A stretch of 64,000 nt of DNA from an uncultured Flavobacteriaceae bacterium. Lineage in GTDB: Bacteria; Bacteroidota; Bacteroidia; Flavobacteriales; Flavobacteriaceae. Under the pieces are notes generated by a model. It was not told where the DNA came from, did no database searches, and saw only the letters and a program-made list of their open reading frames with translations. The stretch is taken from NCBI GenBank assembly GCA_947494695.1, contig CANLWB010000005.1, positions 124,001-188,000 of the forward strand, read 5' to 3'. The position numbers and the translations under genes were made by a program. Shown here one piece after another: positions 19,530-34,310 of the stretch (positions within the stretch are counted from its first letter, which is position 1; every line of letters starts with the position of its first letter).

Positions 19530-21947
19530 ATGAACTTTTTAATGAACCTACTAAAGAAGACGCTTCTTATGTTGCTTATTCCTTATTCATTTTATGCCCA
19601 AGTTGAAATCAAAGGAATAGTAAAGGATTCATCGAATATTGCCATTGAATTTGCAAACGTAGTTTTAGCATCGAAGGGCAAAGGTGATATCGTTTCTGGC
19701 ACTATAACCGATAAAAAAGGGTACTTCAAATTATTAGCTATTCCAGGAGAATACAAACTAACTATTAGTTATATAGGGCATGCAACGGAGTCCATTAATA
19801 TTCTTTTAAAAGAAAACAAAGATTTAGGTGTTTTTATTTTGAATGAAAGTAGCCGTACTCTAAAGGACGTTGTTATTACCTCACAAAAAAGAGTAATAGA
19901 AAAGAAGGTAGACAGGTTGATTTTTAATGTTGAAAACTCCATTTCGATTTCCGGTGGAGATGTTACAGATATTCTTAAGATAGCTCCATATGTTAGAGTT
20001 AAGAATGATGAAGTTTTGATGATTGGAAAAAGTAACTTGAAAATTCTTGTTAATGGGAACTTAGTGAGGGTGTCTAGAGATAATTTGACGAATTTTTTAA
20101 AATCAATTCCCGCTGATGATATTAAAAAAATTGAAATAATCACGAGCCCTCCGGCGAAGTATGAAGCTGAAGGTAATAGTGGTTTAATTAATATTGTATA
20201 TAAAAAAGGAATTACAAATAGCTGGAAAGCCAGTTTAAGAGGTACGTATACACAATATACGTATCCCGATGGTAGTCTTTCGGGAAGTTTTAGATATAGA
20301 GAAAATAAAACGTCTTTATATATAAATACATCCTATGGCAAAGGATCTAAGCAAATCACAGACACGAATATATTTGAATTTGATAGTCAGTTTTGGGATA
20401 GTAAAAACCCTAGACGTATTTTCTACGATAATAGTTTAAACACCAGAATTGCACTTGATTATCATTGGAGCGATCATTTAACCACAGGATTTCAATATCA
20501 AATAGGATATAATGAAATGAGAATCGAGAATAATAATGATGTAGCAAAAATTATAGACAAGAGCTTATCAATAATAGATTCTACCATAGTTTCTAAATCT
20601 AAGTTCAACCAAACGAACCCATTACATTCTATTAATTTTTATGCAGATTATAAATTAGATTCTATAGGAAAAAAAATCTCTTTCAATTTAGACTATTTTA
20701 CATTTTTAGATACAAGTGGCCGAATATATAACTCGTCTAATTTCTTGCCAAATGGACAGGAAACCCCAGATAGTTTTAGTTCTGGTCATAACACTGGCGA
20801 ACAAAACATTAATAATTATTCTTTTAGAGCAGATGTCGAATTTCCTTTAAAAGAAATTAACTTAAACTTTGGAGGGAAACTTTCTTTTATAAACTCAGAT
20901 AATGATACGCGCTTTTTTGATTTAACAACAGGAGTTCCAATATTAGATTTAAATCAAACCAATCAATTTGAGTATAAAGAAAATAATATAGCTTTTTATG
21001 TTTCAGGCAATAAAAGTTTTAATGAAAAATGGAATACAAAAGTAGGCTTTAGGATAGAAAGTACCCATTCAAAAGGTTTGTCATTTCAGCTTAACCAAAT
21101 AAATAAAAATGATTATATAAAGGTGTTTCCCAGTGGATATATTAATTATACTCCAAATAATAACCATAGTTTTTCTCTAAGCTATAATAAGAGAATATCC
21201 AGACCAGATTTTGAATATTTGAATCCCTTTAGAATTACACAGAATCCATATTTATTTGTAGAAGGTAACCCTTTTTTACAACCATCGTTTTCCGATAATC
21301 TTGAGTTTACATATCTAAATAGAGAGAAATGGATAAACAGTATTTACTTTTCTCATATAAAATCTGGGTTTGGTCAAATAGCGGTTGTAAATGTTGATAC
21401 AAGAGTTCGAGGTATAATTCCCCAAAATTATTATAACGGCTACACATTAGGATTAACAGAATCTTATACATTAAAAAAATGGAAAGGATGGGAAAGCATA
21501 AATACTTGTAATGTTAATTACAGTTATGCAGATGCTCTTTTAGATTATATAAATGATAGGCGTAACGGTACTAATGTATACCTATCTACCAATAATAATT
21601 TTACATTGAATAAAGACAAAACCATCATGTCCAGTATAGACGCATGGTACAATTTTGCAGGTGTTTACGATATTTATGAAACCTCATCTAGCTCTAACCT
21701 GAATCTCTCTTTCAAGTTTTTGTTCTTACAAAAAGATTTACAGTTAACTATTACAGGTAGTGATTTGTTTAAAAGTCAAATTACAGAAGTTACAGCATTT
21801 AGCAATAATGTTAAAACAACCTACGAAAACTATTATGATACAAGAAGACTTCGGTTTTCCTTGAGATATAATTTTGGAAATAAAAAAATTAAAGTGAATC
21901 GAAAAGATTTTGGCAACGAAGAAGAAAAAGGAAGAACTGGAAATTAA
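19530..21947 (+). CDS. TonB-dependent-receptor-like outer membrane protein
   Basis: An 805-residue outer-membrane protein. A signal peptide (KKTLLMLLIPYSFYAQ) precedes a carboxypeptidase-like regulatory beta-sandwich (about 22-105, with EIKGIVKDSSNIAIEFANVV and KGYFKLLAIPGEYKL). Next come a plug-like domain (about 110-215, with the conserved end PPAKYEAEGNSGLINIVYKK) and a large aromatic-rich barrel. This is the arrangement of the flavobacterial receptor family with an OMP_b-brl_3 barrel. A second ATG at 19542 gives a better signal peptide. It ends 132 bases before the first precursor and is codirectional. It may import a nutrient, release or re-import the RiPP product, or simply border the cluster. 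Confidence 0.85.
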   Translation: MNFLMNLLKKTLLMLLIPYSFYAQVEIKGIVKDSSNIAIEFANVVLASKGKGDIVSGTITDKKGYFKLLAIPGEYKLTISYIGHATESINILLKENKDLGVFILNESSRTLKDVVITSQKRVIEKKVDRLIFNVENSISISGGDVTDILKIAPYVRVKNDEVLMIGKSNLKILVNGNLVRVSRDNLTNFLKSIPADDIKKIEIITSPPAKYEAEGNSGLINIVYKKGITNSWKASLRGTYTQYTYPDGSLSGSFRYRENKTSLYINTSYGKGSKQITDTNIFEFDSQFWDSKNPRRIFYDNSLNTRIALDYHWSDHLTTGFQYQIGYNEMRIENNNDVAKIIDKSLSIIDSTIVSKSKFNQTNPLHSINFYADYKLDSIGKKISFNLDYFTFLDTSGRIYNSSNFLPNGQETPDSFSSGHNTGEQNINNYSFRADVEFPLKEINLNFGGKLSFINSDNDTRFFDLTTGVPILDLNQTNQFEYKENNIAFYVSGNKSFNEKWNTKVGFRIESTHSKGLSFQLNQINKNDYIKVFPSGYINYTPNNNHSFSLSYNKRISRPDFEYLNPFRITQNPYLFVEGNPFLQPSFSDNLEFTYLNREKWINSIYFSHIKSGFGQIAVVNVDTRVRGIIPQNYYNGYTLGLTESYTLKKWKGWESINTCNVNYSYADALLDYINDRRNGTNVYLSTNNNFTLNKDKTIMSSIDAWYNFAGVYDIYETSSSSNLNLSFKFLFLQKDLQLTITGSDLFKSQITEVTAFSNNVKTTYENYYDTRRLRFSLRYNFGNKKIKVNRKDFGNEEEKGRTGN

Positions 21948-22079
21948 ATATGAAAATATAACGACGAATTCTTAAAAATATATAAAAGTAAACTTGCAAG
22001 TTTAAATGTGTCCGAGAGAAGCTTTATGACAAGAAAATGCAGCTTAATTTGTTAATTAATATTATTAAAACCATTGATT
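21948..22079 (+). promoter_or_regulatory. Leader region of the first precursor gene
   Basis: 132 bases between the receptor stop and the first precursor ATG. Unlike the gaps before copies 2 and 3, it does not carry their conserved 55-base upstream sequence, except for a loosely similar TTAATTaatattattaaaa stretch just before the ATG. It may hold the promoter of the precursor array; no convincing TAnnTTTG match was found, so read-through from the receptor gene is also possible. Confidence 0.3.
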
Positions 22080-22226
22080 ATGAAAAAAATCAAATTGAAC
22101 AAAGGTTTACAGCTTAATAAAAAAGTAGTAAGCAAATTACAAGAAGAGCAGTTAGCCAATGTTAAGGGTGGAGCATTACCACCGGCTGGTTCATGTGGAA
22201 TAGCATCTTGTAATGGGAATGACTAA
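22080..22226 (+). CDS. Class I lanthipeptide-like precursor peptide, copy 1
   Basis: A 48-residue RiPP precursor. The Lys/Leu/Asn-rich leader (KKIKLNKGLQLNKKVVSKL) is of the Bacteroidetes natural-product type and ends in the double-glycine site G30-G31 within LANVKGG, which fits cleavage by the C39 exporter at 26320. The 17-residue core carries S38-C39-G-I-A-S43-C44 after a Pro/Ala stretch and ends NGND. Two Ser and two Cys allow up to two (methyl)lanthionine rings. It differs from copy 2 at core residues 33, 41, 47 and 48 and at a few leader positions. It was too short for a 60-residue ORF cutoff; the ATG was found from the repeat structure. Confidence 0.9.
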   Translation: MKKIKLNKGLQLNKKVVSKLQEEQLANVKGGALPPAGSCGIASCNGND

Positions 22227-22311
22227 TAGTTGATAAAAAAGACACCCCAAAACAACCACAGGTTAATTATTTAACCAAAATTAATTAGTAATAATTTTAA
22301 TATCATTTATT

Positions 22312-22458
22312 ATGAAAAAAATCAAATTGAACAAAGGCCTACAACTTAATAAAGAAGTAGTAAGCAAATTGCAAGAAGAGCAGTTATCTAATGTTAAAGG
22401 AGGAGCAAAACCACCAGCTGGTTCATGTGGAGTAGCATCTTGTAATGGGAAGGAATAA
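22312..22458 (+). CDS. Class I lanthipeptide-like precursor peptide, copy 2
   Basis: A 48-residue precursor. The leader is the same as copy 1 except K15 to E and A26 to S. The double-glycine site is G30-G31, and the core begins AKPPAGSCGVASC and ends NGKE. Its start lies 232 bases after that of copy 1 and 230 bases before that of copy 3, and the non-coding sequence is duplicated along with the gene. The substitutions are conservative and the Ser/Cys spacing is untouched, which indicates selection on the peptide rather than decay. Ring-forming residues are S38, C39, S43 and C44. Confidence 0.9.
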   Translation: MKKIKLNKGLQLNKEVVSKLQEEQLSNVKGGAKPPAGSCGVASCNGKE

Positions 22459-22541
22459 TAGTTGATAAAAAGACAACCTCGAATTACTACAGGTTAATTA
22501 TTTACCAAAATTAATTAGTAATAATTTTAATATCATTTATT

Positions 22542-22706
22542 ATGAAAAAAATCAAATTGAACAAAGGTTTACAGCTTAATAAAGAAGTAGTAAGCAAATT
22601 ACAAGAAGAGGAGTTATCTAATGTTAAAGGAGGGAAGGCTCCTGCTGGTTCTTGTGGAGTAGCATCTTGTAATACTAAGGCAGATAGACCTGTTGATCCC
22701 GATTGA
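22542..22706 (+). CDS. Class I lanthipeptide-like precursor peptide, copy 3 with longer tail
   Basis: A 54-residue precursor with the same leader and GG site (G30-G31). The core is one residue shorter before the motif (KAPAG) and then has S37-C38-G-V-A-S42-C43. The tail differs from copies 1 and 2: after CN it continues TKADRPVDPD and stops, adding an acidic, proline-containing extension. T45 offers an extra dehydratable residue. If made, its product would share the ring region and differ at the C-terminus. A terminator-like hairpin follows the stop by 46 bases. Confidence 0.9.
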   Translation: MKKIKLNKGLQLNKEVVSKLQEEELSNVKGGKAPAGSCGVASCNTKADRPVDPD

Positions 22707-22713
22707 TATTGTG

Positions 22714-22744
22714 TTTAAACTATGAATATTGTTTATAGTTTAAA
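22714..22744 (+). terminator. A/T-rich hairpin after the precursor array
   Basis: A perfect 10-base inverted repeat, TTTAAACTAT (22714-22723) and ATAGTTTAAA (22735-22744), with an 11-base loop, lies directly after the stop of copy 3. It is weak in G/C and lacks a following T run, so by itself it is more likely a processing or stability element than a terminator. It forms a tandem with the stronger hairpin 8 bases later. Confidence 0.5.
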
Positions 22745-22752
22745 GATAATTT

Positions 22753-22786
22753 AGTAGCTAGCTTGAATACTAGCTAGCTACTTTTT
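22753..22786 (+). terminator. Rho-independent terminator/attenuator between precursors and enzymes
   Basis: AGTAGCTAGC (22753-22762) pairs perfectly with GCTAGCTACT (22773-22782) around a 10-base loop, and five T follow from 22782. Its place after three precursor copies and before the biosynthetic genes suggests partial termination, giving much more precursor than enzyme mRNA, as in many RiPP operons. Confidence 0.8.
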
Positions 22787-22810
22787 CTGTAAAGGATCAA
22801 GTCAAATAAA

Positions 22811-22835
22811 TGACTTCATTGTCTATTTGAAGTCA
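22811..22835 (+). other. Third hairpin upstream of the divergent precursor
   Basis: TGACTTCA (22811-22818) and TGAAGTCA (22828-22835) form an 8-base perfect stem with a 9-base loop, 25 bases before the ATG at 22861. No T run follows. It could be an operator or an mRNA 5' structure that affects translation of the fourth precursor. Confidence 0.4.
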
Positions 22836-22860
22836 GAATGAAGAATAAATAACTTTAAGC

Positions 22861-23052
22861 ATGATAAGTTTAAATAAAAAATTACAATTGAATAAGGAGA
22901 TTGTTTCTCATCTTCAAGAAAGTTTATTGACTTTAGACCCTGAAAAAAAAGCAGTTGCCTCATGTCTATTGTACTCTTGCCGTACCGTAAAATGCACAGA
23001 AAATTCTTGTAAACCCAAATCAAATAATATTATTGATAACAAAAAGTATTAA
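22861..23052 (+). CDS. Divergent fourth RiPP precursor without double-glycine site
   Basis: A 63-residue peptide. Residues 4-20 (LNKKLQLNKEIVSHLQE) align with the leader of the three upstream precursors, which places it in the same family. It lacks the NVKGG end: the leader runs on as SLLTLDPEKKAVA. The core-like part has S34-C35-L-L-Y-S39-C40, the same SCxxxSC pattern as the triplicated peptides, then C45 and S49-C50, so the four Cys sit at exact five-residue intervals. T42, T46 and S54 are further candidates for dehydration. Its last 20 bases overlap the TTG start of the LanC-like gene, which suggests translational coupling. Whether the C39 exporter can mature it is doubtful. Confidence 0.8.
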   Translation: MISLNKKLQLNKEIVSHLQESLLTLDPEKKAVASCLLYSCRTVKCTENSCKPKSNNIIDNKKY

Positions 23053-24205
23053 CATAAAACCAAGATTGATTCGAGATGCTTTAATAAAAAATGATTCTAA
23101 GTTTATTAACATGGGGATCTTAGATGGATTGTTAGGAGCGTCATTATTTCATTATTATTATTTCTTATACACAAATAACAAAATTTATCTTAATGATGTT
23201 ACAAGGTATTTAGAAAAGTGTATAGACACTATAGGAGAAGCGTATAAAGGATCTAATATTATAAATGATATAATAGATTTAGGAAATTACATGTTTTTCT
23301 TATATAAGGAAAATTTTTTTGATAAAGATGATATTAATGAGTTCCTGTTTGATTCTGATGAGATAATTAAAGGTTTTTTATTGGAAGAAATTGAGAAAAA
23401 CAATCTTAACCCAATGTTTGGAGCTATTAAAGCTGGCTATTACTTTTTAAATAGGTTAGAGTTTAAAGACGTAAACTCAGAGCTTTTAAGTTTATTGAAG
23501 GGTATAGATAAACAGGCTCATAAATTTAAGGATTCGGTATATTGGGAATCGACACTTAAATCTCCTGAAAAACCGCTTGTTGAACTGGGAGGGATACATG
23601 GCGTATCTGGCGTTGTTAACTTTTTACTTCAAGCCTATTCAAAAGGAGTAAACTATCCAAATTTAAAATCTTTAATACAAAAAGGGCTTAATTTTTTATA
23701 TGAGTTCAATGAAAAAAAAGGAACAAACTGGTTTAGGGTAGAAGCTACAGAAAACAGGAAATTAAATTATCAGGATTTGGCTTATGGAGATATAGGAATA
23801 GGTTATACCTTTCTAAATGCCGGACAGATTTTACAAAATGATCGTTTTAGTTCAATAGGTAAAGAGATTATAGAAAATGCAGCAAAATTTAGAGATAATA
23901 GTAGACATCATATTAAAGATGCCAGTCTTTTTTATGGAGCTTCTGGTTTGTCTGCATTGATGAATAAACTCAATAAAACACTAAACAGTCCAATTTTAAG
24001 GGAATCTGAAGTGTATTGGACACAAATGACTTTAAAAATGGATGATAAAAAATCGATCTGGGCCGGTTATCTCTCAAACTATAACGCACAGCATGATTAC
24101 ACGCATTTGTCTTTTTCAGAAGGCATCTGTGGTATAGGAATTATGCTAATGGCTCAAGAAAAAGGCTTGGATCATGATTATTTGCGCTTTCTAAATTTTT
24201 ATTAA
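23033..24205 (+). CDS. LanC-like protein lacking all zinc ligands
   Basis: A 390-residue protein of the lanthionine-synthetase C fold, with repeated helical segments such as GILDGLLGASLFHYYYF and GIHGVSGVVNFLLQ. In LanC the catalytic zinc is held by Cys, Cys and His in the WCYGD and CHG motifs. Here these read LAYGD (A250) and FYG (F300-Y301), so every ligand is gone, while the active-site HG (H189) and the glycine motifs between helices remain. It probably cannot activate Cys thiols. A scaffold, leader-binding or regulatory role is possible, perhaps paired with the LanC at 28709 or devoted to the fourth peptide. The start is a TTG inside the preceding gene; no nearer ATG preserves the first helix (the next is 23111). 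Confidence 0.85.
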   Translation: MITKSINIKPRLIRDALIKNDSKFINMGILDGLLGASLFHYYYFLYTNNKIYLNDVTRYLEKCIDTIGEAYKGSNIINDIIDLGNYMFFLYKENFFDKDDINEFLFDSDEIIKGFLLEEIEKNNLNPMFGAIKAGYYFLNRLEFKDVNSELLSLLKGIDKQAHKFKDSVYWESTLKSPEKPLVELGGIHGVSGVVNFLLQAYSKGVNYPNLKSLIQKGLNFLYEFNEKKGTNWFRVEATENRKLNYQDLAYGDIGIGYTFLNAGQILQNDRFSSIGKEIIENAAKFRDNSRHHIKDASLFYGASGLSALMNKLNKTLNSPILRESEVYWTQMTLKMDDKKSIWAGYLSNYNAQHDYTHLSFSEGICGIGIMLMAQEKGLDHDYLRFLNFY

Positions 24206-24339
24206 GAGATTTTGAGGTGTAAAAAGACCTTCAAAATATATATTTAGAATTAATTCAGTTTATCTGGTCTAATTTTTTACTAATCAATATAAATGCAAGA
24301 ACTTAAACTACTTAAAATATAAATACGCGATGTGAAAAT

Positions 24340-25287
24340 ATGGGAAATATCAAATTAGGAATTATAGAATTAGGGTATAGAGAAGGTACAGATGGCTTGA
24401 GTATTCTTGAGCAAATTATAAACTATACCATAGAGGCAGAAGAAAAAGGCTTTTCCAGGTTTTGGTTAGCAGAACATCATTACACGCATTATAATCATCC
24501 TTTTTCAAATGGAGAGATACTGCTCACGATATTAGCCGGAATGACAGAAAAAATTAGAGTAGGTACTGCAGGAACATCTATTAGTTTGTATTCTCCTTAT
24601 TCTACAGCTACGAATTTTAAAATGCTTAATAATCTATATTCTAATAGAGTAGATTTAGGGCTATCAAAGGGAATTCCAGATAGTAAGCGTATCATAAATC
24701 TTGCTAATAAGGAATTAAGCGAAGATACATATTTTGACGTTTTCAATAAGAATTTAAGCGAAATTGTAGATCTGTTCCATAATGAAGAAAAGAATTTCAA
24801 AGAAGATAAACTTTTAATTCCGCCTTATGGCGGATCAATACCAGAACTATGGTATTTGTCAGGCTCATATCGCAATTTCAATACGATAATTGAGCACAAA
24901 CTAAATTTCTGTAGATCCATATTCCATGGTACTGGACAAAAAATGGAATATAACAAAGACGAACTTATAGCCTGTAAATCGAAATATTATGAAAAGAACG
25001 GTTTTTATCCAAAAATAGCAATCGCGCTAGCCGTTTATATAGATACAACGTTAGAAGAAGCGACCAAAAAGGTTAATAGTTTTATAGCGGAGACAAAATC
25101 AAGCAAACGTGAAGCTTTTAAAATAATACCTACAACCATTAATCTGTTTCATGAAATGCTTTTAACATATCAGGAAAATTTTGGTGTAGATGAGTTTATA
25201 ATTTACGATTTCGCTATAACTAATGAAATGAAAATTGAAAATTTAGAATTAATAAGTGAAAAGTTTAATTTATTAACACTGGTATGA
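24340..25287 (+). CDS. Luciferase-like flavin-dependent oxidoreductase, first of a pair
   Basis: A 315-residue TIM-barrel protein of the bacterial luciferase-like (LLM) superfamily. The N-terminus KLGIIELGYREGTDG, the LAEHH at 43-47 (matching the EHH of luciferase subunits), GTAGTSISLYSPY and VDLGLSKG are family landmarks. Members use FMNH2 or F420. No lux genes are near, so light emission is not implied. In lanthipeptide pathways an LLM-type reductase class (LanJC) hydrogenates dehydroalanine to D-alanine, so reduction or oxidation of the modified core is the leading inference. It overlaps the next gene by 4 bases (ATGA) and follows the LanC-like gene by 134 bases. Confidence 0.88.
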   Translation: MGNIKLGIIELGYREGTDGLSILEQIINYTIEAEEKGFSRFWLAEHHYTHYNHPFSNGEILLTILAGMTEKIRVGTAGTSISLYSPYSTATNFKMLNNLYSNRVDLGLSKGIPDSKRIINLANKELSEDTYFDVFNKNLSEIVDLFHNEEKNFKEDKLLIPPYGGSIPELWYLSGSYRNFNTIIEHKLNFCRSIFHGTGQKMEYNKDELIACKSKYYEKNGFYPKIAIALAVYIDTTLEEATKKVNSFIAETKSSKREAFKIIPTTINLFHEMLLTYQENFGVDEFIIYDFAITNEMKIENLELISEKFNLLTLV

Positions 25288-26252
25288 CAGATAATAACAT
25301 AAGAATAGGACTTTTAGAGTACGGTTATAGAATTGGTAAAGATGGGATGACAACGCTTGAGGAAATCATAGATTATGCCGTAGAGGCGGATAAACTTGGA
25401 TTTTCCAGATTTTGGATGGGAGAACATCATGGAGCACTTACCACAACTGCTTTTACAAATCCTGATTTATTGATTGGTATTATTGCAGGAATGACCGATA
25501 CTATTAAAGTTGGTTCTGCAGGCTCTACAATATTAATTCATAATGCTTACCCAGTAGTAACGAACTATAAGTTAATGAACAATCTTTTTTATGATAGAAT
25601 AGATTTAGGTTTAGCAAAGGGGAGAGGTCTTATTGAAACTGATGATGCTGTTAAGATGGTAGAAAACCCTAACATTATTAAAAATTTTATGGGGCATTTT
25701 AACAGTAAACTCAAATTAATTTACGATTTGCTTTACAATGAGAAGAAAAACTTCGAAGAGAATAAAATAGTAATACCTCCATTTGGTGGTAAGCCTCCGG
25801 AAATGTGGTGCTTATCAACTTCTTACAAGAATTTTGATACAGCAATTAAATACAAGTTAAACTATAGCAGGTCGTTATTTCATTCATTGCCTGGTGATGA
25901 TCAGTATAAAAAGGAAGAACTTTTAAAATTTAAGCAAGATTTTTTCAATACACACAAAATTTACCCAAAGATAAACCTAGGTATCTCCGTTTGTATTGGT
26001 AAAACTATGACAGATGCTCATAAAGAACTTGATAAATTATATCAGCATTATGGAAAGGGAGAAAATGAACCGTTCAAAATATTTCCTGTAACTATAGAGT
26101 CTTTACATGAATTATTGTTGGAGTATCAGTATTTATATGGTATTGATGAATTCATCATTCATGATTTAACAAATGATTCCAATAGAATGCTTACTAACAT
26201 TAGGGAAATAAGTGAAAAATTTAATCTAGAGAAAGTAGTTGCCGTTAATTAA
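25284..26252 (+). CDS. Luciferase-like flavin-dependent oxidoreductase, second of a pair
   Basis: A 322-residue paralogue of the preceding protein, with the same landmarks (RIGLLEYGYRIGKDG, MGEHH at 45-49, GSAGSTILIHNAYP, IDLGLAKG) and clear similarity along the whole length, so the two arose by tandem duplication. The ATGA overlap couples their translation, a usual arrangement for subunits made in equal amounts. A heterodimer like LuxA/LuxB is therefore plausible, with one subunit catalytic and the other structural. The residues after EHH differ (HYTHYNHPF versus HGALTTTAF), which points to divergent active sites. The exporter gene follows by 67 bases. Confidence 0.88.
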   Translation: MTDNNIRIGLLEYGYRIGKDGMTTLEEIIDYAVEADKLGFSRFWMGEHHGALTTTAFTNPDLLIGIIAGMTDTIKVGSAGSTILIHNAYPVVTNYKLMNNLFYDRIDLGLAKGRGLIETDDAVKMVENPNIIKNFMGHFNSKLKLIYDLLYNEKKNFEENKIVIPPFGGKPPEMWCLSTSYKNFDTAIKYKLNYSRSLFHSLPGDDQYKKEELLKFKQDFFNTHKIYPKINLGISVCIGKTMTDAHKELDKLYQHYGKGENEPFKIFPVTIESLHELLLEYQYLYGIDEFIIHDLTNDSNRMLTNIREISEKFNLEKVVAVN

Positions 26253-26319
26253 AATAGCTAATCTTTCTATATAAATACAATGTGATCTTATTATAAATAT
26301 TGAGACAGGGTAAAACTTT

Positions 26320-28524
26320 ATGAAATTAATTCCACAACATGATCAAATGGACTGCGGGCCCGCTTGTATAGCTATGATATCGTCCTATTTTGGAAAAAAA
26401 TATAGTATAGACTATATAAGGAATCTTTCATACTTAATGCGAGATGGAGTGAGTCTTCGAGGTATTTCTGAAGCAGCAGAGAAAATCGGCCTCAGTACTT
26501 ATGCCAGTATGTTAGATTTAAACACCTTAGATGTTGAAGGCACATTGCCATGTGTGTTGCATTGGAATCAAAATCATTTTGTAGTACTATACAATTATAA
26601 AAAGAATATCCTTACAGGAAAATATAAATACAAAATTGCAGACCCGGGTCACGGACTAATTGCTTTAGATAAAGAAGAGTTTAAATCAAGGTGGTTAACA
26701 GATAGTGGAAAAGGCGTAGCACTGTTTCTGCATCCAACAGAAGCATTCTATAAAAAGGAAGTTCTTAAAAAAAAGAGCATCGATTTTAAATTTCTTTTAG
26801 GTTTCCTAAAACCTTATAAAAAAGAAGTGTTTCAACTATTTTTAGGTTTACTGGCAGGAAGTTTATTTACATTAATATTCCCTTTTTTAACGCAATCGTT
26901 AATAGATAAAGGTGTAGAAAGTAAAAACTTAAATATTGTTTTTATCATTCTGCTCGCTCAAGTATTTCTCTTCTTAGGTTCGATTATTATAGAGGTTGTT
27001 CGAAACTGGATCATGCTATATGTTGGGACAAGAATTAATATTACTATTATTTCAGATTTCTTTAAAAAAATAATAAAACTGCCCATCAACTTTTTTGACT
27101 CAAAATTAATAGGAGATTTTAATCAAAGAATTCAGGATCATGAAAGAATAGAGACGTTTTTAACCTCTCAGAGTTTAATAACACTATTCTCAATAATTAA
27201 TTTTTCAATTTTCTTTTTTGTTTTACTCTACTACGATTTTAAGATCGTTATCACCTATTCTATTTTAACGTTAATAGCCATAGCTTGGTCTGTATACTTC
27301 CTTAAAAAAAGAAAGATTTTAGATTACCATCGTTTTCAAAGAAGAAGTGAAAATCAGGAGTCTATTTATGAAATGATAAATGGTATTCAGGAAATTAAAC
27401 TAAATAGTTTTGAGGACTTTAAAAGAAAAGAATGGGAAAAAATTCAGGTAAGGCTTTTTGGAGTTAATCTTCGGACTTTAAAGTTAGATCAATTTCAATT
27501 AATAGGTTTTAATTTTATTAATCAGATTAAAAATATTTTTGTGACATTTTTGGCTGCGAGAGAGGTGATTTTTGGCAATATTACTTTGGGGTCTATGCTT
27601 GCTATATCCTATATAATTGGTCAAATGAATTCCCCTGTAAACCAATTAATTAACTTCTTTAGGTCGTTGCAAGATGCGAGATTGAGTATGGAGCGTTTAA
27701 GCGAGGTTCAGGATCAGGAAGAAGAAGAAAAAGAGGGGCAAATAAAGCTTACTGAAAAGGATTTAAATTATCAAAATGGAATAAAAAGAGGAATTAGAAT
27801 TAATAACCTCGATTACCAATATGAAGGACCAAAATCTCCATTCGTACTAAAAGATATAAACCTATTTATACCCGAAGGGAAAACAACAGCAATTGTAGGG
27901 GCTAGTGGCAGTGGTAAAACAACTTTCATGAAGATACTGTTGAAGTTTTACAATCCCGTGAAAGGGAATATCCAGATAAATCAATATAATTTATTAGATA
28001 TCTCTCCTGGAAGCTGGCGAGATAATTGTGGTGTAGTGATGCAGGAAGGGTATATTTTTTCAGATACTATTGAACGGAACATCGCTACTGGCGACGAAGA
28101 AATTGACCAGTTTAGATTGCAATTTGCCATTAAAACGGCAAATATAATAGACTTTATTGAAGCACTTCCTCAAAAATTAAAAACTAAAATAGGAGCTTCT
28201 GGAAATGGTATATCGGGAGGTCAAAAACAGCGCATATTAATTGCTAGAGCTGTTTATAAAAATCCACATTATATCTTTTTTGACGAAGCAACAAGTGCTC
28301 TTGATGCCGAAAACGAAAAGATAATACATAACAATTTACAAACATTTTTCAAAAATAAAACGGTGGTTGTAATTGCCCATAGACTAAGTACAGTAAAGAA
28401 TGCAGATCAAATTGTAGTATTAAAAGAAGGGCAAATCGTTGAATTGGGGTCACATATAGATTTAGTTAATAACAAATCAAATTATTACAACTTAGTTAGG
28501 AATCAATTGGAATTAGGATCATAA
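26320..28524 (+). CDS. Peptidase-containing ABC transporter (C39 double-glycine protease exporter)
   Basis: A 734-residue bacteriocin-type exporter that removes double-glycine leaders and exports the core. The N-terminal C39 peptidase has Q6, the catalytic C12 (MDCGPAC), H86 (NQNHFVVL) and D108 (ADPGHG). Six membrane spans fill about residues 165-430. The nucleotide-binding domain shows Walker A GASGSGKT (527-534), signature SGGQ (632-635), Walker B with D655/E656 and the switch H687. All catalytic residues are intact. Precursors 1-3 carry matching GG sites. A Gram-negative system would normally also need an HlyD-type adaptor and an outer-membrane channel, and neither is encoded next to it; a 58-residue membrane protein follows after 2 bases. 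Confidence 0.95.
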   Translation: MKLIPQHDQMDCGPACIAMISSYFGKKYSIDYIRNLSYLMRDGVSLRGISEAAEKIGLSTYASMLDLNTLDVEGTLPCVLHWNQNHFVVLYNYKKNILTGKYKYKIADPGHGLIALDKEEFKSRWLTDSGKGVALFLHPTEAFYKKEVLKKKSIDFKFLLGFLKPYKKEVFQLFLGLLAGSLFTLIFPFLTQSLIDKGVESKNLNIVFIILLAQVFLFLGSIIIEVVRNWIMLYVGTRINITIISDFFKKIIKLPINFFDSKLIGDFNQRIQDHERIETFLTSQSLITLFSIINFSIFFFVLLYYDFKIVITYSILTLIAIAWSVYFLKKRKILDYHRFQRRSENQESIYEMINGIQEIKLNSFEDFKRKEWEKIQVRLFGVNLRTLKLDQFQLIGFNFINQIKNIFVTFLAAREVIFGNITLGSMLAISYIIGQMNSPVNQLINFFRSLQDARLSMERLSEVQDQEEEEKEGQIKLTEKDLNYQNGIKRGIRINNLDYQYEGPKSPFVLKDINLFIPEGKTTAIVGASGSGKTTFMKILLKFYNPVKGNIQINQYNLLDISPGSWRDNCGVVMQEGYIFSDTIERNIATGDEEIDQFRLQFAIKTANIIDFIEALPQKLKTKIGASGNGISGGQKQRILIARAVYKNPHYIFFDEATSALDAENEKIIHNNLQTFFKNKTVVVIAHRLSTVKNADQIVVLKEGQIVELGSHIDLVNNKSNYYNLVRNQLELGS

Positions 28525-28526
28525 TT

Positions 28527-28703
28527 ATGGAAAATGATAATCTGGAACAGGAGTTAGATAAAAATAAATTTGCTGTTGTAAAATATGGGCTAATCATTTT
28601 AAGCCTCGCTATTGTATTAATTCTATATGCTCTTACCATTCTCAAAATAGATGATAAGCCCATACTTTATATGGTAATAGATTATTATATCCACCAAAAC
28701 TAA
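28527..28703 (+). CDS. 58-residue single-span membrane protein in the RiPP operon
   Basis: A short gene starting 2 bases after the exporter stop and ending 5 bases before the LanC start, so it is part of the operon. The protein has an acidic N-terminus (ENDNLEQELDKNK), one hydrophobic span at about residues 20-39 (YGLIILSLAIVLILYALTIL) and a tyrosine-rich tail (LYMVIDYYIHQN). There is no Ser/Cys core and no leader motif, so it is not a precursor. Immunity peptide, exporter accessory or adaptor fragment are possible roles; nothing in the sequence decides between them. The tight packing on both sides supports it as a real gene. Confidence 0.75.
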   Translation: MENDNLEQELDKNKFAVVKYGLIILSLAIVLILYALTILKIDDKPILYMVIDYYIHQN

Positions 28704-28708
28704 AATTT

Positions 28709-29920
28709 ATGAAGAAAGAAATTATCGAGACCAAACTTAAGGAAATCGATAAAATTGTTAAAGAAGAATATCTTAATGAAATGAATATAGGAGTGTTATC
28801 AGGGCTTTCGGGAATGGCTTTGTTTCAGTTCTATTATTCAAAATATTTGAATGTAAATGAGCATGCCGATTTTGGAGCAAAAATCTTAGAACATATTATT
28901 AAAAAGCTAAATGAAGGTTACAGTACATCTCTGTATTGGAATGGAATGGCGGGATTTGGATGGACCATAGATTTTCTAGAATTAAATCATTTTATAGACG
29001 CTGGAAGTGATGATTTGCTTAAAGATATTGATGATTATTTATTTGAGGCTATGAGTATGGCTTTAAAACAGGGGAATTATGATCTTTTGCACGGAGCAAT
29101 TGGACATGCTAATTACTTTTTTAACAGATTTAAAAATACAACCTCCAAAGCGCTTAAGGAGAAGTATAAAGTCAACTTAAAGATGTTCATTTCGGCATTA
29201 GAAGTATTGTCTGAACAAGAAGAAGAAAAAACAAAATGGCTTTCTGTTTTAACATACCAACCTATAGAAAAAGGATATAATTTATGCCTGTCTCATGGTA
29301 TTTCAAGTATTGTTTCAATGCTATCTAAGCTTTATAATGAAGAAGAATTTAAACATAGCATAGAAGCTTTATTAAAAGGAGGAATTAATTACATTTTAAG
29401 TTTTAAAAATGCATTCAGCGAAAGTTTTGGAGCTTTTCCAAATTGGGTTTTACAAAATGGAAAACCTGAAGGTAAAGGTAGATTAGCCTGGTGTTATGGT
29501 GACTTAGGGGTTGGTGTAGCATTATTTCAGGCAGCGATTTCATTAAACGATATGAATTTAAAAAAAGAAGCCCTAACCATTTTGGAACAGGCTGCTAAAA
29601 GGAAAGCTAAAGAAAATACCATGGTTGAAGATGCCGGGATTTGCCATGGAGCCTTTGGAAATGCGTTGATATTTAAAAGGCTATATAAAGAAACAAAAAA
29701 GAAAGTTTTTAAAGATGCTATGGAGTTTTGGATGTCTGATGGCCTTCAAAAGGGCGATTTTAAAGATGGATTCGCCGGCTATAAAACGTGGAACCCAGAT
29801 GAAAAAGAATGGTATAATGATACCTCGTTACTAAATGGAATAACAGGTGTTGGTTTAGTAATGATTGCCTATTTAGGTGATTTTGATTTTGATTGGGATG
29901 CATGTTTAATGATTAATTAG
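28709..29920 (+). CDS. Lanthionine synthetase C family cyclase (zinc ligands intact)
   Basis: A 403-residue LanC. This enzyme class uses zinc to activate Cys thiols for addition to dehydroalanine or dehydrobutyrine, closing thioether rings. Zinc ligands C262 (in WCYGD) and C312-H313 (in ICHG) are present, as is the active-site H196 (LSHGISS). The N-terminal helices (MNIGVLSGLSGMALFQFYY) align with those of the zinc-less paralogue at 23033. It lies 8 bases before the LanB gene. It should be the functional cyclase for all four peptides. Confidence 0.95.
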   Translation: MKKEIIETKLKEIDKIVKEEYLNEMNIGVLSGLSGMALFQFYYSKYLNVNEHADFGAKILEHIIKKLNEGYSTSLYWNGMAGFGWTIDFLELNHFIDAGSDDLLKDIDDYLFEAMSMALKQGNYDLLHGAIGHANYFFNRFKNTTSKALKEKYKVNLKMFISALEVLSEQEEEKTKWLSVLTYQPIEKGYNLCLSHGISSIVSMLSKLYNEEEFKHSIEALLKGGINYILSFKNAFSESFGAFPNWVLQNGKPEGKGRLAWCYGDLGVGVALFQAAISLNDMNLKKEALTILEQAAKRKAKENTMVEDAGICHGAFGNALIFKRLYKETKKKVFKDAMEFWMSDGLQKGDFKDGFAGYKTWNPDEKEWYNDTSLLNGITGVGLVMIAYLGDFDFDWDACLMIN

Positions 29921-29928
29921 TTAGCCCT

Positions 29929-32184
29929 ATGAATAAAAGTATACCCTATAAGAATTTTTCTAACTACGTTTTAAGAAGCCCTTTATTAACCTTTGACTCA
30001 TACAAAGAAATAACGTCTGAGGAAGAAATTACAGACGAACAATTTAAAAGCTTTTATGAAAATAAATCTATAAAAGAGGCCATTTTTTTAGCCTCTCCAG
30101 ATCTGTCTAAAGTGGCAGACCAATGGATTAATGGGAACGTTGATAATAAAAAAGATATTTCGAGAATTAAATTTTCGTTACTAAAATATATTTCAAGAAT
30201 GTCTTCAAGGTGTACGCCTTTTGGTTTGTTCGCCGGGTGCTCCATAGGAGAGTTTAAAAATGAAACCAATATTTCCTTAAACCAACTTAATAAGCATAAA
30301 AGGCATACCCGATTAGATATGAATTATTTAGTCGCATTGTCTCAAGACCTTGTAAAGATAGATCATATTAAAGAGCAACTACTTTTTTTTCCAAATACAA
30401 GTATTTATAAAACAGGAGATCAATTACGGTATGTAGAATACAAATATATAAAGGGTAAACGTCATCATTATATCATATCTGTAGACAACACCACTTATTT
30501 GGATTATGTTTTAAAAAATGCCGAAAAAGGTGCCAAATTAAATGAGCTCACAAAAATTTTAGTTAATGAGGAGATTACCATAGAAGATGCTTCTAATTTC
30601 ATAGAACAATTAGTTTCCGATCAATTATTAGTTAGTGAATTAGAACCTTCGGTCTCTGGTCCCGAGTTTTTAGATCAAATATTTTCTGTATTGGAAAAAT
30701 TAGATAACGTTGAAACTATTATTCAAAAATTAGAAGCTGTTAGGTTTGAATTAAAAGAGATTGATAAAACAATTGGGAATGATATTTATAAATATGAAAA
30801 AATTATAAGCCTTTTAGAGGATTTTAGAACAGAGATTAATCCCAAATTTATGTTTCAAACGGATATGGTACTAAGCCAAATAACGAATACACTGGATCAA
30901 AAAATAATTCAAGATCTAAAAAGAGGGCTTCGATTGTTAAACAAGATTGCGGTTCAAAAAAGCCCTGATAGATTAACAGAATTTAAAGAAGCGTTTTATA
31001 AAAGATTTGAAGAGAACGAAATACCATTATCTCAAGCTTTAGATACAGAGATAGGGCTGGGGTATGTGCAAAACCAAGGTCATGGGGACGTTAACCCGTT
31101 AGTTGACGATTTAGTTTTAGAAACTAAAAAGACCAAACATAATATAAAAGAAATAAAGCAGTCCGACATCGATGCTTTTTTTCAAAGAAAACTAATTGAA
31201 GCCCATAAGAGCGGGGCATATTCAATTTCTATTTCAGAAAATGACTTTAAAGACATAGAGGAAGACTGGAATGATATACCAGATACCTTTTCTTGTATGA
31301 TAGAGCTTCTCGAAATTGAAGGCAAGCAAAAAATTAAATTTAGTGGGTATGGAGGGTCTAGTGCCACTAACCTTTTAGGTCGTTTTTGTCATGGTGATTC
31401 GGAATTAAAAAATCTGGTAAAAAAGATTGGAGATACGGAATCTAAGATAAATACCAATAAAATTGTTGCAGAGGTTGTTCATTTACCAGAATCCAGAGTT
31501 GGCAATATTTTAATGAGGCCTAGTTTGCGTGAATTTGAAATTCCGTATTTGGCTAAGTCTGTTAAACCAAAAACATATCAACTTCCAATAGATGATTTAA
31601 TGATTTCAGTTAAGAATAACAACCGCATTATGTTGAGATCAAAAAAATACAATAAAGAAGTCATTCCAAGGTTGTCAAACGCTCATAATTTCGCTCACAA
31701 TTCCTTACCCATCTATCATTTTTTATGCGACTTGCAGACCCAAAAGTTTAGAAGTGAAATGTGGTTCGATTATGGAGCTTTTAAGGGTGAATATGAATTT
31801 CTACCAAGGGTTGAATTTAATGATCTCATATTATCTGAAGCTACCTGGTATTTAAAAAAGAATAGGATAGAGGCATTAGTGAAAAATGAGAATAACAACG
31901 AAATCTTTGTTAAACAAATAAAACAATTTAGACAAGAATTGAATCTACCAAAATATGTTTTGCTGGTGGAAGGAGATAACGAGTTGTTAGTGAATTTAGA
32001 GAATCTAACCTCTGTAAGAATGTTGCTAAGTCTGGTTAATAAAAGATCTCAATTTAAATTAAAGGAGTTTTTATTTGCAGAAAATAATCTTGTAAAACGA
32101 AATTCTCATTACTTGACAAACCAGATCATAGTATCATTTTATAATGAAAGGAAACTGAAAAATTCAATTAACAAAAACACATGA
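29929..32184 (+). CDS. Lantibiotic dehydratase N-terminal (glutamylation) protein, split LanB
   Basis: A 751-residue LanB-type protein covering the glutamylation region. The hallmark R94-C-T-P-F-G-L-F-A-G103 stretch is present after SRMSS, and segments such as RHTRLDMNYLVALSQDL, GSSATNLLGRFCHGD and HNFAHNSLPIYHFLCDLQ match the family. Full-length LanB enzymes are about 1000 residues because they also carry an elimination domain; here that part is the separate next gene. The enzyme transfers Glu from charged tRNA-Glu to Ser/Thr of the core. The ATGA overlap with the partner gene implies stoichiometric production of a two-protein dehydratase, as known for other split LanBs. Confidence 0.93.
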   Translation: MNKSIPYKNFSNYVLRSPLLTFDSYKEITSEEEITDEQFKSFYENKSIKEAIFLASPDLSKVADQWINGNVDNKKDISRIKFSLLKYISRMSSRCTPFGLFAGCSIGEFKNETNISLNQLNKHKRHTRLDMNYLVALSQDLVKIDHIKEQLLFFPNTSIYKTGDQLRYVEYKYIKGKRHHYIISVDNTTYLDYVLKNAEKGAKLNELTKILVNEEITIEDASNFIEQLVSDQLLVSELEPSVSGPEFLDQIFSVLEKLDNVETIIQKLEAVRFELKEIDKTIGNDIYKYEKIISLLEDFRTEINPKFMFQTDMVLSQITNTLDQKIIQDLKRGLRLLNKIAVQKSPDRLTEFKEAFYKRFEENEIPLSQALDTEIGLGYVQNQGHGDVNPLVDDLVLETKKTKHNIKEIKQSDIDAFFQRKLIEAHKSGAYSISISENDFKDIEEDWNDIPDTFSCMIELLEIEGKQKIKFSGYGGSSATNLLGRFCHGDSELKNLVKKIGDTESKINTNKIVAEVVHLPESRVGNILMRPSLREFEIPYLAKSVKPKTYQLPIDDLMISVKNNNRIMLRSKKYNKEVIPRLSNAHNFAHNSLPIYHFLCDLQTQKFRSEMWFDYGAFKGEYEFLPRVEFNDLILSEATWYLKKNRIEALVKNENNNEIFVKQIKQFRQELNLPKYVLLVEGDNELLVNLENLTSVRMLLSLVNKRSQFKLKEFLFAENNLVKRNSHYLTNQIIVSFYNERKLKNSINKNT

Positions 32185-33086
32185 TTAATAAGGTTCAGAG
32201 TAAATATATATTAGGAGACCATTGGGTTTATTATAAAATATATTCAGGCCCCAAAACGTCAGATAATATTTTAACTCAAATTATTAAACCATTATCCGAA
32301 AAACTTATAAACGACAACATTATTGATAAATGGTTCTTTATACGATACGCTGACCCTGAATATCATTTAAGATTGCGCTTTTATTGTATTAAGAAAGAAA
32401 CAACGGGCGTTGTAATTAATAAATTTCATGAACATTTTAAAGAATATACAGATCAGGGATTGATTTGGAAAGTCCAATTAGACACCTATTTACGAGAATT
32501 AACTCGCTATGGTACAAATACCATTGAATTTGCTGAAAACTTATTTTATCATGAAAGCAAAATGGTTATTAAATTTATCGATATGATAGAAGGAGAAGAA
32601 GGTGAGGAGTTGCGTTGGCTTTTTGCACTAAAATCCACCGATTCTTTACTCGAAAGTTTTCACTATTCTACTTTAGAAAAAAAAGAATTATTAAATAATT
32701 TAAAGAGAGGTTTTGCTTTAGAGTTTGGAAAAACGAAGTTTTTAGGAAAGCAACTAAATGATAAATATAGAGAAGAAAGAGAGAAAATTGATGATTTTAT
32801 TTTATTTAAAGAGAATGAAAAACCGGAGTACGAACCGATTATTGAAGTTTTAAGAGAAAAGGAACATAATATAAAAGAAATCGTCTCTGAGATTTTAAAA
32901 ATTAAGGAAGATAATAATTTAGAGTTGGAAATAAACGATTTAATGGCAAGTTACATTCATATGTTAATGAACAGAATTTTTAAATCTAAGAATAGATTAA
33001 ATGAAATGGTTTGTTACGATTTTTTATGTCGTTTCTATAATTCTAAAATAGCTAGAGAAAAAAAGGTAGAGATTTTGAAAAAGTAG
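32181..33086 (+). CDS. Thiopeptide-type / SpaB C-terminal elimination-domain protein
   Basis: A 301-residue protein with the small LanB domain that eliminates glutamate from glutamylated Ser/Thr to leave dehydroalanine or dehydrobutyrine. The diagnostic motif R55-Y-A-D-P-E-Y-H-L-R-L-R66 is present, preceded by WVYYKIYSG near the N-terminus. Length fits a stand-alone domain. It overlaps the 751-residue protein by 4 bases and is the last gene of the operon; 297 bases follow with no cluster gene. In thiopeptide systems a similar protein catalyses cycloaddition, but the absence of YcaO and the presence of LanC argue for simple elimination here. Confidence 0.92.
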   Translation: MINKVQSKYILGDHWVYYKIYSGPKTSDNILTQIIKPLSEKLINDNIIDKWFFIRYADPEYHLRLRFYCIKKETTGVVINKFHEHFKEYTDQGLIWKVQLDTYLRELTRYGTNTIEFAENLFYHESKMVIKFIDMIEGEEGEELRWLFALKSTDSLLESFHYSTLEKKELLNNLKRGFALEFGKTKFLGKQLNDKYREEREKIDDFILFKENEKPEYEPIIEVLREKEHNIKEIVSEILKIKEDNNLELEINDLMASYIHMLMNRIFKSKNRLNEMVCYDFLCRFYNSKIAREKKVEILKK

Positions 33087-33407
33087 GTGAGATAGTTTGT
33101 GAATCTATGTGATTTTTTATAAATCAGTATTTTGGTAAAAAGATAAACATAGTAGGGATACACGTTCTAATTCATAAAATGAATTAACTTCATCAAAAAG
33201 AATATTACAAAGCTTGCATCGGGTTTTGGTTAAAGTTGTTATTCCATGTAGGTTGTTAAACTAAATTCGAAGTGCGGTCACTTAACGAAGTCGAAGTGAA
33301 AACAGGAATTAAAAACATCTATAATTTTTAAAAAATAATACCTACAAATACTAGAATAACATTAAAGTCTCATTTATATATCTTTGTACTTGAATTTAAA
33401 ATCATTT
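33087..33407. other. Intergenic region at the right edge of the RiPP locus
   Basis: No gene is seen. A segment around 33276-33298 (CACTTAACGAAGTCGAAGTG and the three bases before it) looks like the short GTCA-xx-CGAAGTCGAAG elements scattered in Bacteroidetes genomes, and a shorter related piece (TTCGAAGTGC) lies just before it. The promoter of the esterase gene lies at the end. Confidence 0.4.
33379..33386 (+). promoter_or_regulatory. TAnnTTTG -7 element that decides the esterase start
   Basis: TATCTTTG at 33379-33386 is an exact match to the Bacteroidetes -7 consensus, 22 bases ahead of the ATG at 33408. An in-frame TTG at 33384 lies inside the element and upstream of the expected transcription start, so it cannot be the start codon of this mRNA. 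The -33 partner is unclear. Confidence 0.55.
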
Positions 33408-34289
33408 ATGAAGACAAAAAACATACTTGTTTTGCTGATGGTGATTGGTTTTGAGTGTTTTATATATGCTCAAAACATACCAGCTGTGACCAAATTTGTA
33501 CCACATCATGTTAGCATCGTAGAAGATATTGAATATGTAAGTTATCAAGATAAAACATTATATCTTGATTTGTATCGTCCTGTTGGTAATAAAGAAAAAT
33601 TGGCAACTATAGTCGTTATTCGCGGTGGTGGATTTAGAATAGGAGATAAAAAGGGATTCGCCTCAATGTCGGCGGCTCTGGCAAATCAAGGGTTTGCTAC
33701 CGTTTGTATCTCTTATAGAACTATAGATGAAGCCTTATTTCCGGGGCCTGTTTTAGATTCGAAATCTGCAGTAAAATGGATTCATGATCATGCCGAAACC
33801 TATAACTTGAATACGAATGCTATTGGAGTAATAGGAGGTTCGGCGGGAGCACATTTATCTATGATGTTAGCCACATCTGGTGATGTTAAGTCATTAAATC
33901 CCAATGGGAGTTCCGAACGCTTTAAAGTAAACGCAGCGGTTGTTTTAGAGGCCGATGCCGACTTTTCAATGGCTACCGATGATCAAAATTTAATCGACTG
34001 GTTGGGGTGTACTTATGAAGAGAATAAAACAAAATGGAAACAGGCTTCACCAATAACACACATTGATAAAAACACCCCTCCAATACTTTTTATTCACGGA
34101 GCAGACGATCCCATTGTTCCTATAGAGCAATCTAAAATAAGTATGAATAAACTTATTGAAAACGAGGTATATTGTGAACTTATAGCTTTGCCTAAAGTAG
34201 CTCATGGGTTCTGGGCAAATAAGAAATGGTTCGAATTTACTGTAAAAAGAGCCGCGTTGTTTTTTAAAGAACAATTTAAATTGAATTAA
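33408..34289 (+). CDS. Secreted alpha/beta hydrolase (esterase/lipase)
   Basis: A 293-residue alpha/beta hydrolase. A signal peptide covers about residues 1-21 (ILVLLMVIGFECFIYAQ). RGGGF forms the oxyanion-hole region (HGGG-like), the nucleophile is S145 in GGSAG, the acid is in the ADDPIVP segment and the base is in VAHGFW near the C-terminus. The family resembles acetyl-esterases of the BD-FAE type that remove acyl groups from plant or algal polysaccharides. I reject the upstream in-frame TTG at 33384 because it overlaps a promoter element. It is convergent with the next gene and not obviously part of the RiPP cluster. Confidence 0.88.
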   Translation: MKTKNILVLLMVIGFECFIYAQNIPAVTKFVPHHVSIVEDIEYVSYQDKTLYLDLYRPVGNKEKLATIVVIRGGGFRIGDKKGFASMSAALANQGFATVCISYRTIDEALFPGPVLDSKSAVKWIHDHAETYNLNTNAIGVIGGSAGAHLSMMLATSGDVKSLNPNGSSERFKVNAAVVLEADADFSMATDDQNLIDWLGCTYEENKTKWKQASPITHIDKNTPPILFIHGADDPIVPIEQSKISMNKLIENEVYCELIALPKVAHGFWANKKWFEFTVKRAALFFKEQFKLN

Positions 34290-34310
34290 AAAACACAAAA
34301 ACTATAACCT

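Follow-up and report, generated by a model that had tools for sequence, protein, structure and literature searches.

A flavobacterial class I lanthipeptide cluster with a zinc-less LanC-like protein, paired luciferase-like flavoproteins and SC-x3-SC cores

Introduction

Split-LanB class I lanthipeptide clusters of Bacteroidota, including that of pinensin, combine precursors whose LxLxKx5L leader often ends in GG with a LanC and a C39 protease (Walker et al. 2020, PMC7268733; this and the other papers are cited here from the parts of their text that were available). We analyzed a 64,000-nt stretch of contig CANLWB010000005.1 from an uncultured Flavobacteriaceae bacterium (hereafter the window, whose positions serve as coordinates throughout), in which a gene cluster at 19530-33086 shares this set. 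Compared with pinensin-type clusters as they have been described, it adds a LanC-like protein without zinc ligands (LanC1), two luciferase-like flavoproteins (LLM1 and LLM2), an outer-membrane barrel, SC-x3-SC cores and a fourth precursor (LanA4) without GG. We consider it reasonably probable that the cluster, situated on a gained island, directs the synthesis of a class I lanthipeptide whose leftover dehydroalanine would be reduced by an FMN-dependent, LanJC-like LLM pair, with a metal-independent LanC1 assisting.

LanJC itself is a luciferase-like protein of a class II lanthipeptide cluster (birimositide), for which reduction of dehydrated Ser to D-Ala was proposed (PMC7268733). In the class III enzyme ThurKC, the zinc ligands of the LanC domain are replaced by Ser, Phe and Asp, yet the domain cyclizes its substrate (PMC10604976). 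LanC-like proteins without the C..CH motif are encoded in radical S-adenosylmethionine (rSAM) clusters of Bacteroidales, whose genomes have no LanB and for which the authors favored a likeness to carbohydrate enzymes (PMC10352776). Chryseobacterium ChmABC is a Bacteroidota class I LanA/B/C set that gave dehydration and cyclization in Escherichia coli with the native GluRS/tRNA (PMC9993889); the available text mentions neither an LLM nor a second LanC there. Against this background, the novelty of the cluster in the window lies mainly in a clade of zinc-less LanCs and in its core pattern; otherwise it is a variant of the Bacteroidota class I clusters. A preliminary description of the locus had called it unlike standard nisin-type clusters. 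Its interpretation was right in kind, but the novelty was misplaced: the split LanB is ordinary, and an LLM in such a cluster has a precedent.

Results and discussion

Cluster type

The profile matches confirmed, at the level of sequence, an intact cluster of the class I lanthipeptide type: LanB domains, a LanC2 with zinc ligands and precursors with a leader and a Ser/Thr/Cys core are present, next to the LanC1 that has no zinc ligands. Besides the LanAs, the matches of LanB-N, LanB-C, both LanCs, both LLMs (PF00296) and the exporter domains exceeded their cut-offs. All genes from 19530 to 33086 lie on the + strand, in the order barrel, LanA1-LanA4, LanC1, LLM1, LLM2, C39-ABC exporter, 58-aa membrane protein, LanC2, LanB-N and LanB-C. 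The host genome (5.49 Mb) contains one PF04738 protein and two PF05147 proteins, all within the cluster. No YcaO or azole-forming enzyme, the mark of thiopeptides, was found among the scanned cluster open reading frames (ORFs). Nor is there the fused lyase-kinase-cyclase of class III, LanC1 being a stand-alone protein that scored 29 bits with the LanKC model NF038151 (cut-off 575). The preliminary description had listed four precursors, two LanCs, two LLMs, a C39 exporter, a 58-residue protein and a divided LanB as a class I set; every one of these genes was recovered where it had been placed, and the LanA, LanB and LanC profiles bear out the type. The barrel gene at 19530-21947 had been missed.

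A conserved clade of zinc-less LanCs

In LanC1, the zinc-ligand places hold A250, F300 and Y301, and H189 is kept. The structure nearest to its predicted model (pLDDT 78.1) was NisC (2g02). LanC2 retains the C..CH ligand motifs (CYG, CHG), in agreement with the earlier claim of one zinc-competent and one ligand-free LanC. The relatives of LanC1 are all without the full C..CH set; the companion LanC of each locus carries this set, L066 and L067 being the exceptions (L-numbers denote loci and G-numbers genomes compared). A tree was built from 53 LanCs, 25 of which came from a class-wide search with LanC1 relatives in which LLM was not used; ten near-copy rows (eight from Chryseobacterium and two of L069) and the truncated L194 were left out. 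Fourteen zinc-less LanCs formed one clade with a support of 100/100. Tyr occupies the third ligand place in all 14, and the His equivalent to His212 of NisC is kept in 13, L174 having Asn. The first place holds A, S, L, M, P or C and the second F, I, L, T, Y or N. Twelve of the 14 reside in loci with an LLM. Judged from the alignment and the tree, the zinc-less LanC is a conserved clade and not a lone decayed copy; the preliminary description had seen the missing ligands correctly and overlooked this membership. Recent decay of LanC1 was rejected separately, from its dN of 0.20 and dS near 2.0 and from its 71% identity to the counterpart in the related cluster L005, as against 63% for LanC2. 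We found no description of the clade in literature titles or abstract starts.

Because the ThurKC domain still forms rings without the ligands, loss of zinc need not equal loss of function (PMC10604976, available part). LanC1 shares with that domain the LanC fold, the replaced ligands and the Phe at the second place; it differs in being a separate protein, with a zinc LanC as its neighbor and a LanB in the cluster, in having Tyr rather than Asp at the third place and in keeping the His212 equivalent. With the Bacteroidales rSAM-cluster proteins, as far as these are described in the accessible text (PMC10352776), it has in common the phylum and the lack of C..CH, but in the window its gene adjoins those for LanB, LanA and a zinc LanC. 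The loci L066 (G226) and L067 (G100) deserve particular attention. In both, LanB, LanA and LLM are present and the two cluster LanCs are without zinc ligands; neither genome gave an additional PF05147 match. The second zinc-less LanCs of these two loci have an origin separate from the 14-member clade. G100 and G226 thus offer a natural test of the need for zinc in class I lanthionine formation.

These two loci also bear on the view that LanC1 is catalytically dead and kept as an assembly or leader-binding partner, with LanC2 making all rings and the LLM pair providing the sole extra step. All three zinc ligands are replaced in LanC1 of both the window and L005, and the fold is kept in the model while the first two ligand places drift across the clade, which speaks for such a role. 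We nevertheless regard this view as somewhat unlikely: in L066 and L067, where zinc-less LanCs are the only ones found, a zinc LanC cannot serve, if rings are made at all, and the invariant Tyr and mostly kept His of the clade also count against it.

Other unusual LanCs were observed. The zinc LanCs of L068, L069 and L071 (G287, G336 and G151) keep their ligands and have Tyr in place of the His212 equivalent, a mirror image of LanC1. L177 (15430-17492, G793) encodes a very divergent, long, zinc-less LanC-like protein by an LLM, with a zinc LanC and a fused LanB in the same region. A second, split LanB (L118, G226 C54:1316101-1336100) is present in the genome of L066, in which no zinc LanC was found.

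Precursors and the core motif

Precursors were called with NCBIfam NF038153 (lant_leader_L1a, cut-off 22), and all four LanAs scored above the cut-off. The leaders of LanA1-LanA3 terminate in GG, and LanA4 is without GG and has the lowest score, so that the divergence noted earlier for the fourth precursor is borne out, as are the SCxxxSC cores. The last 20 bases of LanA4 are also the first of LanC1, whose start codon is TTG. The last LanA of L005 (8601-8780) is likewise without GG, carries SCLLYSC and has a similar overlap with the LanC1 start.

The motif [ST]C-x3-[ST]C was present in 39 of the 44 distinct LanA-like candidates from zinc-less-LanC loci (10 of the 12 loci that yielded candidates), in none of 26 candidates from loci without LLM (18 with split LanB and one with fused LanB; 13 yielding candidates) and in none of five from Chryseobacterium LLM loci. 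The corresponding numbers expected from shuffled tails were 0.13, 0.08 and 0.09. Because each group consists of related sequences, the counts cannot be treated as independent trials. The duplicate Chryseobacterium loci L072-L075 were dropped from this count as well as from the LanC ligand comparison and the LanB tree. The start-codon filter of the count lost true precursors (L008 and most Chryseobacterium loci) and let in spurious ORFs (two of the five Chryseobacterium candidates, one of L008 and several of the 26). When the lost precursors were read by eye, L008 had the strict motif and Chryseobacterium had DC-x3-TC. A first count (41/45 versus 0/17) was set aside, because precursors without GG had been admitted outside the window only with the motif and the GG filter had dropped Chryseobacterium. 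In the class-wide set, L174 has the strict motif. The core motif is linked to zinc-less LanC loci, with exceptions both ways.

Elsewhere, long runs of precursors were seen. In L122 (14803-17969, G183), a fused LanB and an ABC transporter adjoin a tandem array of fifteen short GG precursors, of which twelve are nearly the same. The class I loci L179 (2087-10903, G479), L180 (11606-17136, G733) and L185 (5483-9268, G725) each encode between nine and thirteen diverse LanA-like precursors.

The LLM flavoprotein pair

LLM1 and LLM2 are 43% identical and share a clade (support 98/99) with their counterparts in L006, L007 and L066-L070. Their best NCBIfam match was the MsnO8 family TIGR03558, at 106.1 and 115.6 bits, below the cut-off of 166.95, and MsnO8 (4us5) was also the structure nearest to the predicted LLM1 model (pLDDT 89.5). 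Among the LLM loci examined, a pair was found only in the window and L005, the two copies being 78% and 73% identical between them; the others have one LLM. There was no sign of a dead subunit; the 17-row alignment that includes both proteins has 22 invariant columns, which they necessarily share as members of it.

The LLM scan gave 43 loci, and the neighborhoods of 21 (L005-L022, L034, L035 and L044) were examined. All of the 18 nearest (L005-L022) have LanB and LanC within 10 kb, and the more distant L034, L035 and L044 have neither. An LLM match at E 1e-30 was obtained in 12 of 395 genomes of the order. The ten LLM rows outside the host genome with E below 1e-80 are all in LanB/LanC clusters; six weaker rows (about 1e-31 to 1e-33) fell outside the neighborhood examination.

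The host genome gave no match to CofD (F420 synthesis), the one marker searched. Because of this result and because MsnO8 is the nearest structure, the data suggest FMN rather than F420 as the LLM cofactor. LxmJ of lexapeptide is reportedly a LanJC-type reductase that uses F420. Like that of birimositide, the lanthipeptide cluster of the window combines surplus Ser with a PF00296 protein, and it differs from the described LanJC in being of class I, in its two copies, in the likelier use of FMN and in having MsnO8 as its best named family (PMC7268733, available part). The flavoproteins had been taken to add a redox step; the pair could indeed do so, but an LLM in a lanthipeptide cluster has its precedent in LanJC.

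The pair could instead oxidize, acting as a two-subunit flavin monooxygenase on Cys or thioether sulfur (yielding a sulfoxide) or on another core residue. The named family and structures nearest to LLM1 are monooxygenases (MsnO8, bacterial luciferase), and both LLMs are kept in two genomes, like the alpha and beta subunits of luciferase. Set against this, the function published for an LLM in a lanthipeptide cluster, in the accessible part of PMC7268733, is reduction, and the other LLM loci examined carry a single LLM; oxidation is therefore possible but doubtful.

The outer-membrane barrel

The barrel gene at 19530 is 69% identical to its counterpart in L005, and the next copy in its own genome is 28% identical. 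Since its only solved-structure match was to a SusC-homologue domain with an E of 0.0068, the term TonB-dependent-receptor-like is based on PF14905 and the carboxypeptidase-regulatory domain. We sought the best match to this gene in nine genomes. It was inside the zinc-less LanC cluster in the host genome, G100, G151, G287 and G336, and G151 had a second match in its second zinc-less LanC cluster. In G226, the best match (L126) is followed by two LanAs at a contig end, on a contig other than that of L066. In G061, G040 and G139, where no zinc-less LanC cluster was found, it was at another site, which in G139 is about 7 kb away from a split LanB that has no accompanying zinc-less LanC. A PF14905-type barrel was matched strongly in the window, L005-L007, L067-L071, L174 and L178, more weakly in L008, L016 and L020 and not in L066. 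In the class-wide set, both zinc-less-clade loci have the barrel and none of the 19 zinc-LanC-only loci has it, several of the latter ending early at contig ends. From these positions, we assign the barrel gene to the cluster.

That the product is re-imported through the barrel as a metal-binding or signaling peptide, and is not an antibiotic, would fit the presence of the barrel in most zinc-less LanC loci and its absence from the 19 comparison loci, the two LanAs after the G226 barrel and the richness of Aquimarina cores in Cys and His. We consider this quite unlikely, as such genomes commonly encode barrels, for which export or immunity would also be possible roles, the comparison loci are partly shortened and the G139 barrel is near a LanB without any zinc-less LanC.

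Split LanB and the joining of two lineages

The LanB-N and LanB-C frames share 4 bases. The division of LanB was correctly recognized in the preliminary description; it is not a novelty of the cluster, having been described for pinensin (PMC7268733, available part). In a survey of the order that scored at most three candidates per genome and did not include the LanB of L071, the near-complete list of 85 LanB-N rows comprised 55 frames of 722-778 aa (split), 26 of 981-1090 aa and 4 fragments. In this order, split LanBs outnumber the others, and we rejected the split as the distinguishing feature of the cluster.

In the LanB tree, which also left out L071, LanB-N of the window and L005 grouped with the split LanBs of L116 (97/93) and L124 (99/98), and the seven fused LanBs of the nearest LLM relatives formed a separate 100/100 clade. 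Fission of the family's own fused LanB was thereby ruled out. LanC2 is outside the 97/89 clade of second LanCs from L006, L007, L016, L066-L068, L070 and L071, and it is 46% identical to the LanC beside the L116 LanB, which was not in the tree. LanC1 and the LLMs group by tree with the fused-LanB LLM/zinc-less clusters; the exporter and the barrel were placed with them by identity only. The exporter is 58-65% identical to those of L006, L007 and L066-L071, and also 51-52% to those of L105, L107, L115 and L124. These trees and identities indicate that LanB and LanC2 of the window come from another cluster lineage than the rest, a point missed in the preliminary description. The simplest reading is exchange of a LanC-LanB cassette within an older module, with the joint between the small membrane gene and LanC2.

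The related cluster L005 and the genomic island

In Psychroserpens luteolus, L005 has the barrel, LanC1, LLM1, LLM2, exporter, LanC2, LanB-N and LanB-C in the window order, with six LanAs and a membrane ORF of 55 aa at the corresponding places. The larger genes are 63-89% identical to those of the window. Values of dN were 0.07-0.26 in nine of ten compared genes and 0.43 in LanA4; dS was mostly above 1.4, 0.97 in the 58-aa gene and not computable for LLM2. Because the gene order is the same and dN is far below dS, the cluster is not a chance assembly. The 58-aa ORF was likewise ruled out as a chance frame by its relative in L005, which is 84% identical.

The island spans about 15 kb (window 19000-34300). 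The genes at 17856 and 35023, 16 kb apart in the window, have relatives on one contig only 0.7-0.8 kb apart in seven of eleven congeners (G001, G002, G006-G009 and G011). In G004 these relatives are 8.5 kb apart with other content, and in G005 they are on different contigs; in G003 and G010, only the relative of the second flank gene was found (63%). In the eleven congeners, no LanC scored over the cut-off (a single weaker match in G005 contains a stop), and relatives of LLM1 were not found at E 1e-20. The G+C content is 29-33% across 20-36 kb, versus 34-36% on both sides. None of five window flank genes was found in the 21 kb of L005, which include only 5 kb before and 2 kb after the cluster. 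Acquisition of the whole cluster in one piece is the simplest reading.

Proposed working

In this family, ring closure between a dehydroalanine and the Cys next to it is not expected. If neighboring Ser-Cys pairs do not close, the usual direction would allow only S1-C7 in each SC-x3-SC unit, and the second Ser and first Cys would need another fate, such as dehydroalanine reduction or a reverse C2-S6 bridge. In the working that we propose, LanB-N would glutamylate core Ser with Glu-tRNA and LanB-C would eliminate glutamate to give dehydroalanine. LanC2 would then close the S1-C7 thioether in each unit, leaving one dehydroalanine and one Cys over because the neighboring pairs are not expected to self-close. 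With FMN, LLM1/LLM2 may reduce this dehydroalanine to D-Ala in the manner of LanJC, and LanC1 may be a maintained metal-independent LanC that acts on the same core as a cyclase or substrate-holding partner. The C39 exporter would cleave LanA1-LanA3 after GG and export them, LanA4 being perhaps matured otherwise or retained inside, and the barrel could serve passage or recognition of the product.

Several observations weigh against this working. The first ligand Cys is still present in four of the 14 rows of the zinc-less clade. Within the 20 kb examined, L174 and L178 have a zinc-less LanC as their sole LanC and no LLM. The strict motif occurs in two of the 19 zinc-LanC-only loci (L180 and L196, one precursor each), is missing from L016 despite a zinc-less LanC and an LLM, and is represented in L178 only by C-x3-SC. 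In twelve Chryseobacterium LLM loci, a single zinc LanC is the only LanC and the strict motif does not occur; therefore, the LLM does not depend on LanC1. F420 synthesis was searched for by a single marker, and LanC1 may be an inactive scaffold.

With such exceptions to each association (motif, barrel and LLM), and with split LanB, GG leader and C39 exporter already known from Bacteroidetes class I clusters (PMC7268733, available part), the cluster might be an ordinary pinensin-like one whose additional tailoring genes follow no shared logic. This appears improbable, as distant loci across the class repeatedly combine a LanC of the zinc-less clade with the motif and the barrel. A more elaborate product, to which we assign a low probability, would have the metal-independent, Tyr-bearing LanC make an extra cross-link. 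Each (S/T)C-x3-(S/T)C unit would become a double-stapled hairpin of nested S1-C7 and C2-S6 thioethers of opposite polarity, tuned by the FMN-LLMs and handled by the receptor for uptake or recognition, and the clusters would represent a distinct Bacteroidota class I line.

The cluster also connects a core pattern with both a redox enzyme and an outer-membrane receptor among lanthipeptides of Gram-negative bacteria, where few products are known. The LLM pair is a possible FMN-type dehydroalanine reductase that could be used in E. coli without F420.

Cluster layout and neighboring genes

The genes of the cluster are listed in Table 1.

Table 1. Positions and sequence matches of the cluster genes in the window
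Gene product	Position	Strand	Features
Outer-membrane beta-barrel / TonB-dependent-receptor-like protein	19530..21947	+	PF14905, carboxypeptidase-regulatory N-terminus
LanA1 precursor	22080..22226	+	GG leader, core SCGIASC; NF038153 46.7 bits; ATG at 22080
LanA2 precursor	22312..22458	+	GG leader, core SCGVASC; NF038153 51.0 bits
LanA3 precursor	22542..22706	+	GG leader, core SCGVASC; NF038153 48.8 bits
LanA4 precursor	22861..23052	+	No GG; SCLLYSC and Cys-containing tail; NF038153 26.8 bits
LanC1, zinc-less LanC-like, 390 aa, stand-alone	23033..24205	+	PF05147 76 bits
LLM1, luciferase-like flavoprotein	24340..25287	+	PF00296 68 bits
LLM2, second luciferase-like flavoprotein	25284..26252	+	PF00296 60 bits
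C39 peptidase-containing ABC exporter	26320..28524	+	PF03412, PF00664, PF00005 (peptidase, membrane and ATPase domains)
58-aa protein, one likely membrane span	28527..28703	+	84% identical to the 55-aa ORF at the corresponding place in L005
LanC2, predicted zinc-competent cyclase	28709..29920	+	PF05147 141 bits; C, C-H ligands (CYG, CHG)
LanB-N, predicted glutamylation part, 751 aa	29929..32184	+	PF04738 2-649/649, 485 bits
LanB-C, predicted elimination part, 301 aa	32181..33086	+	PF14028 1-255/255, 241 bits; TIGR03891 244 bits

A BD-FAE-type hydrolase gene at 33384-34289, inside the island just 3′ of LanB-C, was not seen in L005 and has no known link to the pathway. At the other edge of the island, the gene at 17856-18992 encodes a glycosyltransferase, which we take to resemble the bacillithiol synthase BshA.

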